Assembly: GCA_017620015.1 (NCBI GenBank)
Contig: JAFZRE010000023.1
Coordinates: forward strand, 1 to 64,000
Direction: 5' to 3'
DNA length: 64,000 nt
Source: Bacteroidales bacterium
Lineage (GTDB): Bacteria; Bacteroidota; Bacteroidia; Bacteroidales; ML635J-15
The notes under the pieces were generated by a model. The model was given only the letters and a program-made list of their open reading frames with translations, had not been told where the DNA came from and searched no databases. Positions 322 to 58,433 of the stretch are shown piece after piece (positions within the stretch are counted from its first letter, which is position 1; every line of letters starts with the position of its first letter). The position numbers were made by a program, and so were the translations under genes.

Positions 322-349
322 TCCCGACTATATGTCGGGATCTTTTTTT
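322..349 (+). terminator. rRNA operon intrinsic terminator
   Basis: A 7-bp perfect stem (tcccgac / gtcggga, 322-328 with 334-340) with a 5-base loop is followed by a run of seven T. It sits 10 bases after 5S rRNA and should end the rRNA operon. Confidence 0.88.
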
Positions 350-377
350 GTATATACACAAATAATTATTATCTTTG
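348..377 (+). promoter_or_regulatory. Bacteroidota-type promoter for the surface-protein gene at 404
   Basis: A -33-like TTG (348-350) and a -7 box TATCTTTG (370-377) are 19 bases apart, the layout of the Bacteroidota housekeeping promoter. The start codon at 404 lies about 20 bases after the expected transcription start. The -33 element overlaps the T-run of the rRNA terminator. Confidence 0.75.
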
Positions 378-403
378 CACAAAATTTGATAATAAGGTTT
401 AAC

Positions 404-3400
404 ATGAAAAATTTTGCAGTACTTATTTGTGCCTTCTTAATGTCGTTTGCTTTTGACTCAATGGCATTAAACGCACCAACACTATCGTCACCCAATGACG
501 GTACAGTTTATACATCATCGGTAAAACCGACAGTATCATGGAATTCCGTATCCGGGGCGAATAAATACATATTGGATTGGGATATCGAATCTTCGTTTTC
601 ATCCCCAAGGTTCCGTACATATACAACGACATATACTTATGTTAATTTAACAGCATTGTCGTATGGGACAACATATTACTGGAGAGTCCGTGCTGTAAAT
701 GAAAGTGCAAATGATACATCAGACTATTCTGCTGTACGGAATTTTACAACTTGCTCAGCACCAACATTATCTTCTCCCAATGATGGTATAGTTTATACAT
801 CGATTGTAAGGCCGACAGTTTCTTGGAATACAATAACAGGCGTTGGAAGTTATATCCTTGAATGGGACACTGTATCTTCATTTTCATCACCAAAATCATT
901 TACAACAACTTCAACATCTGTCAATATAAATGCATTGCGATACAACACAACGTATTATTGGCGAGTAAAGGCAACCAACAGCAACGACAGCGACACTTCC
1001 AACTATTCTGAAGTTAGGAATTTTACAACTTGCTCGGCTCCAATTTTGAGTTCTCCAAGTAATGGTATGGTTTATACGAGTATGGTCAGACCTTCTGTTT
1101 CTTGGAATTCAATAACCGGTGCAGGAAGTTATATCCTAGAGTGGGATACAGTGCCTTCGTTTTCATCAACGATGTTCCGCACATATACAACATCATCGAC
1201 ATCCATTTATATTAATGGATTGCTATACAGCACAAAGTACTATTGGCGCGTTAAGGCAACCAATACAAACGACAGCGACACATCCAGTTATTCCGAAGTG
1301 TGGAATTTCACAACAGCCGGAACAGTTACTTTAAGTTCACCAACCAACAATCCAAGTCCGACAGGCAGGTTTTATTCACGGCAGTATTTACGCTGGAATA
1401 CATTACCAGGTTCTTCAGAATACATGATCCAGCTTGATACAACTTATGATTTCAGTTCAAGTGTATTGCGCAATATAAGTGTATCAACATCAAATACAAA
1501 TACAGATTCATATTATGAAAAGTGTGTGTACGATTTATATTATGGAACAATGTACTATTGGAGAGTTTGTGCAATAAGTTCTGTCGATACAACCGACTGG
1601 TCTGAGACTTGGCAGTTCCATACGATGGATGATGTACTGCTGTTTTTCCCAAGTGATACTAGTGCAAATGGCACTTATTTTACGCGGCAAGAATTTCAAT
1701 GGAAGAATTCATTAGGTTCTAAATCGTATATTCTTCAGTTAGATACAGTTCCGAGTTTTGATTCTGGATTGTTGCAGAGCATAGATGTTTCATCATCAAC
1801 TACAAACACAGATACATACATATACAAGTATATTTCCGATATGCGTTATGGCACAATGTATTATTGGCGTGTATGTTCGGCAAATGCAGTCGATACATCT
1901 GGCTGGTCTGCTACATGGCGATTCCATACTACCGATTGGGTTGCGCTATATTATTTACCGAACGATACAAGTTCTACTGTTGGCTATTATACCCGCCAAG
2001 AACTGGAATGGCAGAATTCAAAAGGTTCTAAAGCGTATATTCTTCAGTTAGATACAGTTCCGAGTTTTGATTCCGGGTTGTTGCGCAGCATAGATGTTTC
2101 ATCAACAACCACCAATACCGATACATACATATATAAATATGTTTCTGATATGCGTTATGGTACAATGTACTATTGGCGAGTTTGTGCTATAAACAATGCT
2201 GACACATCGGGCTGGTCTGCAACTTGGCAATTCCATACTGTCGATTGGGTTGTATTGGATTCTCCATCAAATAATAGTACAGGTTTGGCAGTATCTTCGC
2301 GTACATTGTATTGGAATAACTCCAGAGGCTCTTCATCGTACATAGTTCAGGTTGATACAACAACAAACTTTAATTCGGAATTATTGCGTAATGTAAGTGT
2401 TTCGTCATCAACGACAAGTACAGAAACATACAAGAGTACAAGCATAACGAATATGCTCTATGGAACAACTTATTATTGGCGAGTTTGTGCTATAAATGCC
2501 TCGGATACATCTGGTTGGTCGAATGTATGGCGTTTCACTACTGCTTACCAGCTTACTACTGCGCCTACGCTTGTAAGTCCCGCAAACGGCAGCAACGAAA
2601 TACAGCCATCAGGTGTGGATTTGGTTTGGAATCCGTTGGACAATGTTACCGGCTACCGCTATCAGGTGTCAACTGATAATACTTTTGCAACAATATACCG
2701 TAGTGGAACCACCGCCAACACAACGGCAACCTGCTATCTAAATTATGGCACAACTTACTATTGGCGTGTTCAAGGCTACAACGCAAGCGGAAATTCGGTT
2801 TGGTCTCAGGTGTGGAGTTTCGATACTCAATCGTGCGAACTCACTGGCGAAACAACTGTCGAGGCTTGCGGCTCGTACTTGTGGCGTGATTCAACCTACA
2901 CCGAATCGGGTGACTACGACTTTACCAAGCATCTGTCGAACGGTTGCGACAGCATAATAACCTTGCATCTGACAATCAACCAGTCGTCGGAGCGCGAATT
3001 CTCGCATACCGCCTGCGGCAACTACATTTGGAACGGCGTAACCTACGACGAAAGTGGCGACTATGTACAGAATATCACTGCTTCAAACGGTTGCGACAGC
3101 GTTGTTACACTGCATCTTACGATAAATTATCCGCTGACTGAGCTTGTCGAAGTCGAGGCCTGCAATTCATACGTATGGAATGGTACTACCTATACCGAGA
3201 GTGGTAATTATACGCGTACTTTTACCGCAGCAAACGGTTGTGATTCGGTTGTTACCTTGCAGTTAACAATAAATGAATCGCCGCGTCGAGAATTTTCAGC
3301 AGTTTCGTGCGGCAGCTATGTATGGAACAATCAAACATACACCCAATCTGGAAATTATGAGCAAACGATTTCATCCGACAGCGGTTGCGACAGCATTGTT

Positions 3401-4267
3401 ACATTGCATCTTACAATCAATCAACCGCTGACTGAGCTTGTCGAAGTCACGTCCTGCGAATCCTACGAGTGGAACGGGGAAACATATACGGCAAGTGGCA
3501 ACTATCAGCAAACATTCACTGCTGTCAATGGTTGCGATTCTGTAGTTACATTGCATTTGACAATAAATCATCCGACTACGGCAGAATTCGCGGTTTCCGC
3601 TTGCGACTCCTACGTATGGAATGGTGAAACTTATACCGAAAGTGGAATCTACACCCAGAATTTCACTATTGCAAGTGGTTGCGATTCTGTTGTAACCTTG
3701 CATTTGACAATCAATCACCCGCAGGCAGAGCATGTAGAAGCCGAGGCTTGCAATTTCTATGTATGGAACGGTGTGTCATATAACGAAAGTGGTGACTATG
3801 TTCAGACTTTGTCTGCTGCAACTGGCTGCGATTCGGTCGTTACGTTGCATCTTGTCATCAACGAACCGGTAACTTATGAGTTCGATACTTCTGTAAATGA
3901 AGCTTTCGTTTGGAATGGCGAAACATTTACCGAAACAGGTGATTACACTCAGACATTCACTGCTGCAAACGGCTGTGATTCAATCGTCACCTTGCATCTG
4001 AATGTTATTACAGGAATTTTAGAAGCAGAAATGCAGATAAACATTTTCCCAAACCCAGTAAACGACATCCTCAACATCACATCATCAGAGCAAATTTCTG
4101 AAATTGAAATTGTGAATGCTTTGGGACATGTTGTAAAGCGTCTGGAAGTGAACGCTGATAATGCTGTTTGCGATGTGGAAGATTTGACAAGCGGGGTGTA
4201 TGTGGTACGTCTCCGCACCCTTCGACAAGCTCAGGGGGCGGTTTTACGAAAATTTGTAAAAGAATAG
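404..4267 (+). CDS. T9SS type A secreted surface protein with fibronectin-like and GCDS repeats
   Basis: A 1287-residue protein beginning at the ATG at 404, chosen because a clean signal peptide (MKNFAVLICAFLMSFAF) starts there and a promoter lies just upstream. After it come eight fibronectin-III-like repeats (motifs 'TLSSPNDG', 'TYYWRV', 'W.FTT'). Then follow eight copies of a ~45-residue module with the pattern C-x2-Y-x-W-x3-TY-x2-SG-x-Y and 'GCDSxVTLHLTIN'. The C-terminal ~75 residues ('NIFPNPVND', 'GVYVVRL') are a T9SS type A sorting domain, so the protein is predicted to be exported through the outer membrane and attached to the surface. A REP-like repeat (4218-4241) is inserted in frame within the sorting domain. 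Adhesion is plausible, but no ligand is suggested. Confidence 0.85.
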   Translation: MKNFAVLICAFLMSFAFDSMALNAPTLSSPNDGTVYTSSVKPTVSWNSVSGANKYILDWDIESSFSSPRFRTYTTTYTYVNLTALSYGTTYYWRVRAVNESANDTSDYSAVRNFTTCSAPTLSSPNDGIVYTSIVRPTVSWNTITGVGSYILEWDTVSSFSSPKSFTTTSTSVNINALRYNTTYYWRVKATNSNDSDTSNYSEVRNFTTCSAPILSSPSNGMVYTSMVRPSVSWNSITGAGSYILEWDTVPSFSSTMFRTYTTSSTSIYINGLLYSTKYYWRVKATNTNDSDTSSYSEVWNFTTAGTVTLSSPTNNPSPTGRFYSRQYLRWNTLPGSSEYMIQLDTTYDFSSSVLRNISVSTSNTNTDSYYEKCVYDLYYGTMYYWRVCAISSVDTTDWSETWQFHTMDDVLLFFPSDTSANGTYFTRQEFQWKNSLGSKSYILQLDTVPSFDSGLLQSIDVSSSTTNTDTYIYKYISDMRYGTMYYWRVCSANAVDTSGWSATWRFHTTDWVALYYLPNDTSSTVGYYTRQELEWQNSKGSKAYILQLDTVPSFDSGLLRSIDVSSTTTNTDTYIYKYVSDMRYGTMYYWRVCAINNADTSGWSATWQFHTVDWVVLDSPSNNSTGLAVSSRTLYWNNSRGSSSYIVQVDTTTNFNSELLRNVSVSSSTTSTETYKSTSITNMLYGTTYYWRVCAINASDTSGWSNVWRFTTAYQLTTAPTLVSPANGSNEIQPSGVDLVWNPLDNVTGYRYQVSTDNTFATIYRSGTTANTTATCYLNYGTTYYWRVQGYNASGNSVWSQVWSFDTQSCELTGETTVEACGSYLWRDSTYTESGDYDFTKHLSNGCDSIITLHLTINQSSEREFSHTACGNYIWNGVTYDESGDYVQNITASNGCDSVVTLHLTINYPLTELVEVEACNSYVWNGTTYTESGNYTRTFTAANGCDSVVTLQLTINESPRREFSAVSCGSYVWNNQTYTQSGNYEQTISSDSGCDSIVTLHLTINQPLTELVEVTSCESYEWNGETYTASGNYQQTFTAVNGCDSVVTLHLTINHPTTAEFAVSACDSYVWNGETYTESGIYTQNFTIASGCDSVVTLHLTINHPQAEHVEAEACNFYVWNGVSYNESGDYVQTLSAATGCDSVVTLHLVINEPVTYEFDTSVNEAFVWNGETFTETGDYTQTFTAANGCDSIVTLHLNVITGILEAEMQINIFPNPVNDILNITSSEQISEIEIVNALGHVVKRLEVNADNAVCDVEDLTSGVYVVRLRTLRQAQGAVLRKFVKE
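4218..4241 (+). repeat. REP-like palindromic repeat inside a coding sequence
   Basis: A copy of the dispersed CCTTCGAC-aag-CTCAGGG repeat seen also near 6161, 20347, 28548 and 57811. Here it is read in frame as TLRQAQGA between 'YVVRLR' and 'VLRKF' of the T9SS sorting domain, where the family normally has a short turn. Confidence 0.75.
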
Positions 4268-5862: not shown

Positions 5863-6874
5863 CGCATTGCAGTGGAACGACTATTCATCGTACATCCGCA
5901 GGACTTTTGGCGAGCGGGTGCAGAAAATCTCTGTAAATGCGGGTTTTACATGTCCCAACCGCGACGGAAAGATTAGCACCGACGGCTGCATTTATTGCAC
6001 CAACAAAAGTTTCAGTCCGTTTTATTGCAATTCCGATGATTCCATTGCCGTGCAGTTGCAGAAGGGAATAGATTTTTTCAGACCGAAGTACAGTGCACAG
6101 AAATATCTGGCTTATTTTCAGTCATATACTAATACGTATGTGCCAGACAGGAGCGAAAAACCTTCCCTTCGACCCTTCGACAGGCTTACTTCGACAAGCT
6201 CAGCATGCCGCAGGGAGCGAAGCTCAGGGGGCGGTTTGGATATCCTTCGCAAAAAATTTGACGAAGCCCTCTCCGTTGATGGAGTGATTGGCCTTGTTGT
6301 TTCTACCCGTCCCGATTGTATTGACGATGAGATACTTAGACTTTTTGCCGACTATGCTGCAAGCAATTACGTCGAAATCGAATATGGACTTGAATCGACA
6401 AAAAATTCTACTTTGGAATTTATAAATCGCGGACATACCTACGAGCAGGCGGTCGAGGCAGTTGATTTGACTTACAAATATGGCATAATGTGCGGACTTC
6501 ATCTTATAATCGGTTTGCCTTACGAAACCGAAGATGACTTTTATGCTCACGCCGAAAAAATTTCCCATTTGCCAATCTCTACTCTGAAACTCCATCAGAT
6601 GCAAGTACTTAGGGGTACTCGTTTGGAAAAGTTGTATGCCGAAAATCCAAGTATGCTTGCCGATATGTCGCTGGAAAATTATGTGCGCATAGTTTCCAAT
6701 TTTATTGATATTCTTAATCCCGAAATAATTGTAGAACGCCTGACCAGCGAATCTCCACGCGATATGCTTTTGTATCCCGATTTTGGGGGACGAAAAAATT
6801 TCGAGGTGGTGCATATCGTGGATGCCTATATGAAAAGGAACGGGATGTATCAGGGAAGGAATTATAAAGGCTAA
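5855..6874 (+). CDS. radical SAM protein, YhcC/TIGR01212-like, with a repeat-derived insertion
   Basis: A 339-residue radical SAM enzyme. The N-terminal 'FTCPNRDGKISTDGCIYC' holds Cys33, Cys45 and Cys48, the spaced 4Fe-4S ligands of the TIGR01212/YhcC family. Later family landmarks are 'EYGLES' and 'GLHLIIGLP'. The reaction is not known with certainty. Residues ~101-128 are not family-like: they are translated from a cluster of REP-like repeats (6161-6234) inserted in frame between 'YFQSYTNTY' and 'ILRKKFDEAL'. The reading frame is kept, so the protein may still fold with a surface loop. Confidence 0.85.
   Translation: MSNALQWNDYSSYIRRTFGERVQKISVNAGFTCPNRDGKISTDGCIYCTNKSFSPFYCNSDDSIAVQLQKGIDFFRPKYSAQKYLAYFQSYTNTYVPDRSEKPSLRPFDRLTSTSSACRRERSSGGGLDILRKKFDEALSVDGVIGLVVSTRPDCIDDEILRLFADYAASNYVEIEYGLESTKNSTLEFINRGHTYEQAVEAVDLTYKYGIMCGLHLIIGLPYETEDDFYAHAEKISHLPISTLKLHQMQVLRGTRLEKLYAENPSMLADMSLENYVRIVSNFIDILNPEIIVERLTSESPRDMLLYPDFGGRKNFEVVHIVDAYMKRNGMYQGRNYKG
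6161..6234 (+). repeat. compound REP-like repeat cluster inside the radical SAM gene
   Basis: Several partial cores lie in a row: CCCTTCGAC, CCCTTCGACAGGC, ACTTCGACAAGCTCAG and GAGCGAAGCTCAGGGGGCGG. The same core occurs at 4218, 20347, 28548 and 57811. The cluster is read through in frame and adds roughly 25 residues rich in Ser, Arg and Gly. Confidence 0.8.
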
Positions 6875-20335: not shown

Positions 20336-20384
20336 CAATAACAAAAGCCCCCTGAGCGTCAGTCGAAGGGGTGATTAATTGTCA
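20333..20384 (+). terminator. hairpin with REP-like repeat in its loop
   Basis: An outer stem tgacaat (20333-20339) / attgtca (20378-20384) encloses an inner stem with a REP core (20347-20372: gccccctgagcg, cagtcgaaggggt). No clean T-run follows, so it may be a weak terminator or only a structured 3' end. Confidence 0.5.
20347..20372. repeat. REP-like palindromic repeat
   Basis: The core CCCCTGAGCG-tcag-TCGAAGGGG is the reverse complement of the family core seen at 4218. It forms a CCCC/GGGG stem by itself. Confidence 0.75.
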
Positions 20385-28432: not shown

Positions 28433-28625
28433 CGTCATTCCGTAAAACAGAACGAACAGCATAAGGAACGTTGCTCGTGAGTTCGTTTATACGGAACGCT
28501 GCTTGCAGCTTCGCGAAACGAAGTGAGCAATCTCCTATAGATAGCCGCACTTCGACTACGCTCAGTGAGCGACCGCAACGCTTTCCGTTCCGTTTCGCGT
28601 TATTGTTCTGACTTGTGGAATGACG
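28433..28625. repeat. palindromic MITE-like element with a REP core
   Basis: A 193-nt stretch bounded by inverted ends (cgtcattcc / ggaatgacg, continuing imperfectly inward, e.g. cagaac / gttctg). Inside are further inverted blocks: aacgaact-type 'gagttcgtttatacggaacg', 'agcttcgcgaaacgaag', and a REP core cacttcgactacgctcagtg (28548-28567). It has no open frame. It fills the gap between the AsmA-like gene and the peptidase gene; the rest of the gap (28626-28708) is AT-rich with nothing else visible. Confidence 0.7.
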
Positions 28626-55345: not shown

Positions 55346-55411
55346 ATATGCAATTCTTTGCTAATAAGGCGCAATGCGTTGCGCCTCTACGTGTTTTGTG
55401 TAATTGCATAT
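55346..55411 (+). terminator. nested hairpin after the glycosyltransferase gene
   Basis: A 10-bp perfect outer stem (atatgcaatt 55346-55355 / aattgcatat 55402-55411) encloses a second perfect stem ggcgcaa / ttgcgcc (55368-55374 / 55379-55385) followed by tctacg. The inner repeat resembles the palindrome inside the RAYT gene. No T-run follows. Confidence 0.6.
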
Positions 55412-57773: not shown

Positions 57774-57795
57774 TATTATAGGTATTCAAAAAAAA

Positions 57796-57858
57796 GGAGT
57801 CAAAATCCTGTGCTCCCTGAGCGTAGTCGAAGGGCAGGATCTTGACTCCGTTTTTTTT
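57796..57858 (+). terminator. ackA terminator with a REP-like repeat in its loop
   Basis: A 15-bp near-perfect stem (57796-57810 / 57835-57849, one mismatch) is followed by eight T. The 24-base loop is a full REP-like unit (57811-57834, CCCTGAGC-gtag-TCGAAGGG). Confidence 0.85.
57811..57834. repeat. REP-like palindromic repeat in a terminator loop
   Basis: The same core as at 4218, 6161, 20347 and 28548. It stands 42 bases upstream of the RAYT gene. Confidence 0.75.
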
Positions 57859-57875
57859 GATGTTACAACAAATAT

Positions 57876-58433
57876 ATGTCGGAAGAAAAATTTCAGAGGA
57901 AATACAGAATTGCTTCGGTGCGCGCATCGTGGCATGATTACAGGTGCGGTGCATATTTCGTAACTATATGCACCAAAGACCGTGAACATTATTTTGGCGA
58001 AATTGAAAATGATGAAAACGGAAATCAAAGGATGAAATTATCTCCGATTGGGGAAATTGCAGACGAATGTTGGCGGGCGATTCCACAACATTTCCCGCAT
58101 GTTCAAATTCCATTATGGGTTGTGATGCCAGATCATATACATGGGATTGTGATTATTGATGATTTTGTAGAGACGCAAAATTTTGCGTCTCTACATGATA
58201 ACGAACCCAATAAATTTGGACCGCAATCAAAAAATCTGGCATCTGTGATTCGTGGATTCAAAATCGGTGTGACAAAATTTGCCCGCCAAAACAATATCCT
58301 TTTTTCATGGCAATCCAGATATTATGACCGTATTATCCGTGATTCTGCCGAAATGAACCATATTGCCGAATACATTGAAAACAATGTGTCAGAATGGAAT
58401 GCGAATAAAGATATTGACTATCAAATAGATTAA
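57876..58433 (+). CDS. REP-associated tyrosine transposase (RAYT, Y1/IS200-like)
   Basis: A 185-residue Y1 transposase-like protein. The HUH pair is 'MPDHIHGIVII' (His87, His89) and the nucleophile Tyr149 or Tyr150 lies in 'FSWQSRYYDRII'. The N-terminal 'GAYFVTICTKDREHYFG' is also typical of RAYTs, which are single-copy enzymes that handle REP palindromes. Residues ~98-106 (VETQNFASL) are translated from a perfect 28-nt palindrome inserted in frame after the HUH motif, where homologues have a shorter loop. A REP unit lies just upstream in the ackA terminator. Confidence 0.87.
   Translation: MSEEKFQRKYRIASVRASWHDYRCGAYFVTICTKDREHYFGEIENDENGNQRMKLSPIGEIADECWRAIPQHFPHVQIPLWVVMPDHIHGIVIIDDFVETQNFASLHDNEPNKFGPQSKNLASVIRGFKIGVTKFARQNNILFSWQSRYYDRIIRDSAEMNHIAEYIENNVSEWNANKDIDYQID
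58167..58194. repeat. perfect 28-nt palindrome inside the RAYT gene
   Basis: The half-site gtagagacgcaaaa and its exact reverse complement meet without a spacer. A related unit (ggcgcaa-tgcg-ttgcgcc-tctac) lies at 55368-55390. Confidence 0.85.

Follow-up and report, generated by a model that had tools for sequence, protein, structure and literature searches.

TnpA_REP recognizes a GTAG tetramer together with a hairpin in single-stranded DNA and nicks at an adjoining CT (PMC8266576), and in the Escherichia coli enzyme the residues contacting GTAG are W94, Q95, E100, H101, and R104 (PMC6006769). The closest described relatives of the locus reported here belong to RAYT subclass 2.4 of Quentin et al. 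(2018; PMC6006769), which carries the motifs NH[IFV]H, WQ, and YIxNNP and, with its double-foot REPs, is equated in their table with RAYT group 4. Those authors found REPs in frame inside subclass 2.4 genes, Bacteroidetes included, and considered that they possibly have little impact on protein activity; REPs flanking the gene are common in the subclass without being universal. In E. coli, REPs flank the gene, contain a bulge, and have a single foot, whereas the unit described here is a perfect, loopless palindrome inside the gene. The repeats also resemble the GTAG-tagged REPs of Di Nocera et al. (2013; PMC3733652), which, in the sections of that paper drawn on here, have a GTAG foot, form palindromes of 20 to 40 bp, occur as several subtypes per genome, and are mostly intergenic; RAYT genes are not singled out as REP hosts in those sections. 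An earlier, sequence-only reading of this DNA had held that a Bacteroidales RAYT with such repeats would be worth describing. A RAYT subclass with in-gene REPs in Bacteroidetes is already published (PMC6006769), and what is new is the evidence against neutrality of the in-gene REP, namely its rates of change, covariation, use of two reading frames, and persistence where no other copy was found.

The gene lies in a window of 64,000 nucleotides (C21:1-64000 of a 3.49-Mb draft genome), among whose open reading frames it encodes 185 amino acids. From its sequence and a predicted structure, we assign the product as a RAYT (TnpA_REP), an HUH single-tyrosine (Y1) transposase similar to subclass 2.4, in agreement with the sequence-only reading, which had placed a RAYT at 57876. 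The NCBIfam model NF047646 (REP_Tyr_transpos) matched with an E value of 1.1e-10 and 41.6 bits, under its curated cut-off of 80, a value that is an annotation threshold and not a biological feature; its paralogues likewise score under it. Pfam returned no match at E<=1e-3, and neither did a search of PHROGs. The weak NF047646 score and the Pfam blank are probably due to the in-gene insert, which splits the domain. The RAYT call nevertheless stands because a PDB profile search with a profile of 12 relatives returned a sole match, 4ER8, the REP-bound form of E. coli TnpA_REP, the AlphaFold model (mean pLDDT 85) had the same structure as its top Foldseek match (E value of 2.6e-07), and the GTAG-contacting residues have counterparts. 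W145, Q146, and R155 are identical to those of E. coli, while E100 and H101 are replaced by D151 and R152, replacements noted in other subclasses (PMC6006769). In fold, catalytic motifs, and GTAG-contacting residues, the protein is like E. coli TnpA_REP and REPtrons. Its motifs read DHIH, WQ, and YIENNV, those of its homologues mostly NHIH and NNP. Between a strand at residues 87 to 94 and a helix at 121 to 138, the model has a low-confidence loop equivalent to the variable insertion (beta3-alphaC) of subclass 2.4. We rejected an identity as an IS200/IS605 insertion sequence: a mobile multicopy element would be expected, but the genome has one copy of each RAYT type, and true IS200-type genes occupy separate loci. 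Two homologous genes of relatives (L087/L203 and L088/L210) match genes of rumen Bacteroidales MAGs without a difference, and this places the genus.

Table 1. Coordinates in the window of the RAYT gene, its motifs, and the repeat units of both families
Feature	Position	Strand	Remarks
Family 1 unit in frame, 3' end of ORF 331-4267	4220..4234	+	
Family 1 unit nested amid partial units	6189..6203	+	
Family 1 unit, 4-base loop (TGAC)	20352..20367	-	
Family 1 unit ACTTCGACTACGCTCAGTG, outer stem pair altered on both sides	28549..28567	+	
Single-foot dispersed REP of other subtype, core GGCGCAATGCGTTGCGCC; GTAG foot at 55387-55390 (one CTAC after core on + strand)	55368..55390	-	
Bidirectional terminator between ackA and RAYT	57786..57860	.	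RNA fold -35.5 kcal/mol, z -6.8
Family 1 unit CCTTCGACTACGCTCAGGG, perfect core, in ackA terminator loop	57815..57833	-	
RAYT open reading frame	57876..58433	+	
HUH motif H87-I88-H89 (MPDHIH)	58134..58142	+	H87 and H89 columns invariant in 56 homologues
In-gene double-foot REP GTAGAGACGCAAAATTTTGCGTCTCTAC, perfect 28-bp palindrome GTAG...CTAC, encodes V98-H107	58167..58194	.	Perfect match
W145, Q146, D151, R152, R155	58308..58340	+	Alignment to 4ER8; counterparts of W94, Q95, E100, H101, R104
Catalytic tyrosine Y166 in YIENN	58371..58373	+	Column invariant in 56 homologues

A second palindrome type that the sequence-only reading had listed at 55368 and 58167 is real at both places, the unit at 55368 being a single-foot form of another subtype. 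Position 58167 had been given without remark on its place, which is within the RAYT's own reading frame. As DNA, this in-gene unit folds at -14 kcal/mol (z of -7.2). Residues 99 to 107, which it encodes, have pLDDT values below 50, and on the AlphaFold model the peptide would be a disordered surface loop of low cost to the protein. The genome has six short RAYTs, 34 to 56% identical to that of the window, and in every one the corresponding linker contains a near-perfect unit; the units differ in sequence from gene to gene and are read in two frames. Across phyla, a tagged palindrome was present in 39 of 80 RAYT ORFs compared to 8 of 753 other ORFs of the same loci (p=1e-36). In a wider set, 93 of 133 RAYTs had a clear tagged unit in the linker; since ~30% were without one, the unit is not essential everywhere. 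Over both sets, units lay in frame 0 or 1 and hardly ever in the one where TAG becomes a stop (67, 40, and 1 cases). Because the units use two reading frames and encode many unrelated peptides, we rejected retention of the unit as a needed peptide. Furthermore, the in-gene cores matched REPs of their own flanks 48 times, against a mean of 6.6 and a maximum of 24 in 20,000 permutations. Since matches to own flanks far exceed those to other loci, the in-gene unit is the cognate REP of its RAYT.

Units of this kind also occur in other arrangements. The distant genes L207, L233, and L262 have a second, identical in-gene unit near residues 47 to 50, and in the RAYT linkers of L063 and L077, stretches coded by half or all of the palindrome (TQNIASLHDNETD) recur in tandem, so a unit can expand in place. 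Two long Y1 proteins of 354 to 373 amino acids, L038 (G000:C24:118740) and L039 (G000:C18:163074), contain an in-gene CCCGAATT-T/A-AATTCGGG palindrome, which in L038 spans 45 bp with perfect arms; in-gene palindromes are therefore not restricted to short RAYTs.

Comparison of related genes shows that conservation of the palindrome acts on the DNA and not on the encoded protein. Pairing held in 95.3% of cells across the 29 distinct units from the genus, against 30 to 44% in slid controls, and both-side changes were found in 120 cells, against 31 in shuffles. The GTAG/CTAC feet of these units are nearly invariant, while the stem varies. In 16 sister pairs, a comparison that presumes shared descent of the unit, divergence of the in-gene unit was 4.6%, whereas four-fold sites in the catalytic core had diverged by 26.4% (p=3e-23). 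The same pairs differed by 5.3% at first and second positions and by 16.5%, with 204 gap columns, in the linker outside the unit, and 1 of 75 four-fold sites within the unit had changed. Under the same presumption, 43 sister pairs of the wider set showed 55 compensated and 56 one-sided differences; one-sided changes were present in recent pairs. On a tree obtained by a quick search, from draft genomes with ORFs called by simple rules, the minimum numbers of changes were 28 for unit presence, 46 for unit type, and 12 for frame, so in-gene units are also gained, lost, or replaced.

The central four bases, of which unit selection made no use, would form the unpaired loop of any hairpin from the unit. 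Self-complementarity of these bases was found for 27 of 29 in-gene units from the genus and for 30 of 40 from the broad set, compared to 24 of 51 dispersed units. G-U pairs were rare (7 GU/UG cells of ~387 paired). Because the loop bases are self-complementary and G-U pairs are few, these properties fit two-fold symmetric DNA rather than an mRNA hairpin. The symmetry tests, like those on sister pairs, were designed in the course of the analysis. Altogether, the sequence comparisons suggest that the enzyme makes use of the palindrome as a site, and that the palindrome is more than a harmless insertion. Where subclass 2.4 was read as carrying REPs of possibly little consequence (PMC6006769), the units here differ in that they are conserved at the nucleotide level, have undergone compensatory change, and are exactly two-fold symmetric.

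We refer to palindromes of the form GTAG...CTAC as family 2, of which there are 29 genome-wide at <=2 mismatches compared to 0 in the control. De novo palindrome statistics were drawn from 1.217 Mb (35% of the genome). In this sample, 27 of 51 intergenic units had at least one GTAG foot, where ~0.3 would be expected by chance among the 102 ends. Both feet were GTAG in 49 of 57 in-gene units versus 5 of 51 dispersed ones, the other 46 of which had one or none. GTTG stood at one end of 14 of the 51 dispersed units, often with GTAC opposite, and of none of the 57 in-gene units; such ends differ from the REPs of Di Nocera et al. (PMC3733652) as described in the sections drawn on here. The unit at 55368 resembles the in-gene unit of the paralogue on G000:C32. 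A repetitive gene at G000:C21:147630-148300 contains several GTAG- or GTTG-footed palindromes (GTAGAGACACAAGGTTTTGTGTCTCTAC) in tandem and is the only other coding place in the sample with several such units.

The family 2 pattern count tracks RAYT number in 23 genomes of the family (Spearman rho of 0.83), with counts of 0, 0, 1, and 0 in four RAYT-less relatives. Among 148 Bacteroidales genomes, the generic double-foot pattern was found in 43 of 64 RAYT-bearing and 14 of 84 RAYT-less genomes (p=3.5e-10), at mean copies of 4.7 with and 0.6 without a RAYT; in both samples the counts include in-gene copies and ignore kinship. As judged from sequence, then, family 2 is the REP of this RAYT. A link between the RAYT and the repeats, which the sequence-only reading had drawn for both palindrome families, accordingly holds for family 2, with its GTAG feet and a copy number that follows the RAYT, and is not supported for family 1. 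Near the RAYT genes, flanking REPs are present in many distant loci. No similar unit was found within 1.5 kb of the window's RAYT, and the same was true for 51 of the 54 genes from the genus, where, in contrast to subclass 2.4 at large (PMC6006769), the in-gene copy is usually the sole copy near the gene. For the in-gene unit of the GGCC type, no other exact core match was found in genomes G000, G002, G015, and G017, and one-mismatch matches did not exceed the reversed control. Within the clade carrying this type, the stem has been altered on both sides yet is still paired.

Family 1 (CCTTCGAC..GCTCAGGG) is unrelated to family 2. With <=2 mismatches allowed, the 3.49-Mb genome contains 43 sites, and the reversed-pattern control 0; written as CTTCGAC, 2 to 5 bases, and GCTCAG, with other loop lengths allowed, it amounts to about 50 to 65 units per 1.2 Mb. 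The core reported to recur near 4218, 6161, 20347, and 28548 does so as variants at 4220, 6189, 20352, and 28550, and two further variants in the window, at 3138 and 3432, had been overlooked. All 50 of 50 units have a Watson-Crick second outer pair, of which three types occur. Doublets are inverted in eight cases, direct in two, and in the opposite orientation in none, an arrangement in one orientation like that of REPINs (Bertels and Rainey 2011; PMC3116915). Unlike for REPINs, a search for a partner that covered every Y1 gene type in the genome and the family found none, and neither the RAYT type scoring above the cut-off nor the long Y1 type tracks family 1 in number. A literature search on the core sequence returned no paper. 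Units nested in the loops of other family 1 units were clear in six cases in 1.2 Mb; nested places include window positions 6161-6230, G000:C33:143335, C10:190899, and C32 near 58650. Two C-terminal segments, one in the window (4220-4234) and one in L019 (G000:C4:53154), contain an in-frame family 1 unit at matching positions; both segments read GVYVVRLRT[LRQAQG]AVLRKFVKE and resemble type IX secretion sorting domains. The terminators at 57786-57860 and G000:C10:190870-190965 both hold a family 1 unit in the loop and have similar outer arms (CGGA[GA]TCA.GATCCTG), and unit and shared arms may form one composite element.

Other hairpins in the genome were considered for the window's RAYT and rejected. 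The GTCGTAGGCT hairpins go with a different RAYT at C20:75467-75937, and the CCCGAATT palindromes go with the two long Y1 genes on C24 and C18. The C20 gene, on the minus strand and scoring 112 bits, represents a second kind of RAYT; it is flanked by GTCGTAGGCT..AGCCTACGAC hairpins (G000:C20:75000-76000) and has an intact rsmA on one side and a duplicate of the rsmA 3' end on the other, as though its insertion had restored the end of the gene.

Several explanations other than recognition by the RAYT could account for the in-gene unit. It might be overwritten repeatedly, through conversion or re-insertion, from other RAYT genes or from REPs that are dispersed or flank the gene. REP pools are indeed alike in sequence, unit types switch often on the tree, and flanking copies in the broad set are often identical to the in-gene copy. 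However, 51 of 54 genes in the genus have no flanking copy to draw on, the dispersed pool differs in form (46 of 51 with one or no GTAG foot; GTTG in 14 of 51 versus 0 of 57), and the GGCC-type unit stays paired with no donor copy detected by search, so we consider such homogenization unlikely. The unit might instead be a neutral passenger, REPs landing widely and being merely tolerated in the flexible linker of the RAYT, a reading near that of Quentin et al. (PMC6006769). A disordered peptide, as predicted by the model, would suit this reading, as would the use of both open frames and almost never the stop frame, which is the pattern of random in-frame survivors; REPs within unrelated genes are also known from the sections of PMC3733652 drawn on here. 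Yet a passenger should not diverge ~6 times less than four-fold sites and ~4 times less than neighboring linker DNA, compensatory changes and retained feet would be unexpected, and other ORFs of the same loci seldom carry a unit (8 of 753); neutrality is therefore rather improbable. We give slightly less credence still to an mRNA hairpin that controls translation or decay of the transposase independently of RAYT binding. The unit folds strongly in mid-gene, and mRNA structure controls ISPpu9, another REP-associated transposase, according to the part of PMC8450116 drawn on here; an RNA hairpin, however, has no need of GTAG feet or self-complementary loop bases, and G-U pairs are rare.

It is very unlikely that family 1 (CCTTCGAC..CTCAGGG) is mobilized by the window's RAYT. 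Family 1 is a real hairpin family with inverted doublets and a fully paired outer stem pair of three types, one copy lies ~40 bp upstream of the RAYT start codon, and there is a weak correlation between its copy number and the number of RAYTs (rho of 0.62 in the 23 genomes, weaker than for family 2). However, that copy, which had been proposed as the RAYT's REP-like partner, sits in the ackA terminator loop, and the partnership is unsupported. Family 1 sites are few at RAYT genes (five loose sites among the RAYT loci examined). The family is absent from G003, which has four RAYTs, and from RAYT-bearing G013, and is present at 10 to 14 copies in G004 to G006, which have one or two diverged RAYTs and no family 2. 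Comparison with relatives, suggested by the sequence-only reading together with a search for guide-like tetramers at unit ends, thus favors the link to the RAYT for family 2 and not for family 1; the tetramers likewise were found in family 2, as GTAG, and no GTAG foot was found on family 1 units.

We favor the reading, at a probability of roughly 0.55, that the in-gene unit is the cognate REP and a cis site recognized by its own RAYT, which may serve in self-regulation and as a source copy. Its computed basis is the position of the unit, its cognate relation to the RAYT, nucleotide-level conservation, compensatory change, and symmetry. Being double footed and two-fold symmetric, the unit at 58167-58194 can present a GTAG foot and a hairpin on either strand, and the RAYT would be expected to recognize it when the gene is single stranded or the palindrome extruded. 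Binding or nicking there would couple the dose of the enzyme to its substrate, and the RAYT gene may be the source copy from which the dispersed REPs, most of them single footed, derive. In genomes where the searches found no further copy, self-regulation would be the likeliest reason for retention. More tentatively, and at somewhat less than even odds, the primary REP may be the in-gene, strand-symmetric self-target, kept perfect by selection even where no other copy was found; the gene would then be its own operator or licensing site, and dispersed REPs would be its secondary, decaying offspring.

An in-gene REP would lock enzyme and substrate together, which bears on how RAYTs and REPs remain matched and on the long retention of RAYTs as single-copy genes. 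Furthermore, the dozens of distinct palindromes, each lying in the gene of its likely enzyme, provide natural enzyme-substrate pairs from which rules of recognition may be drawn.
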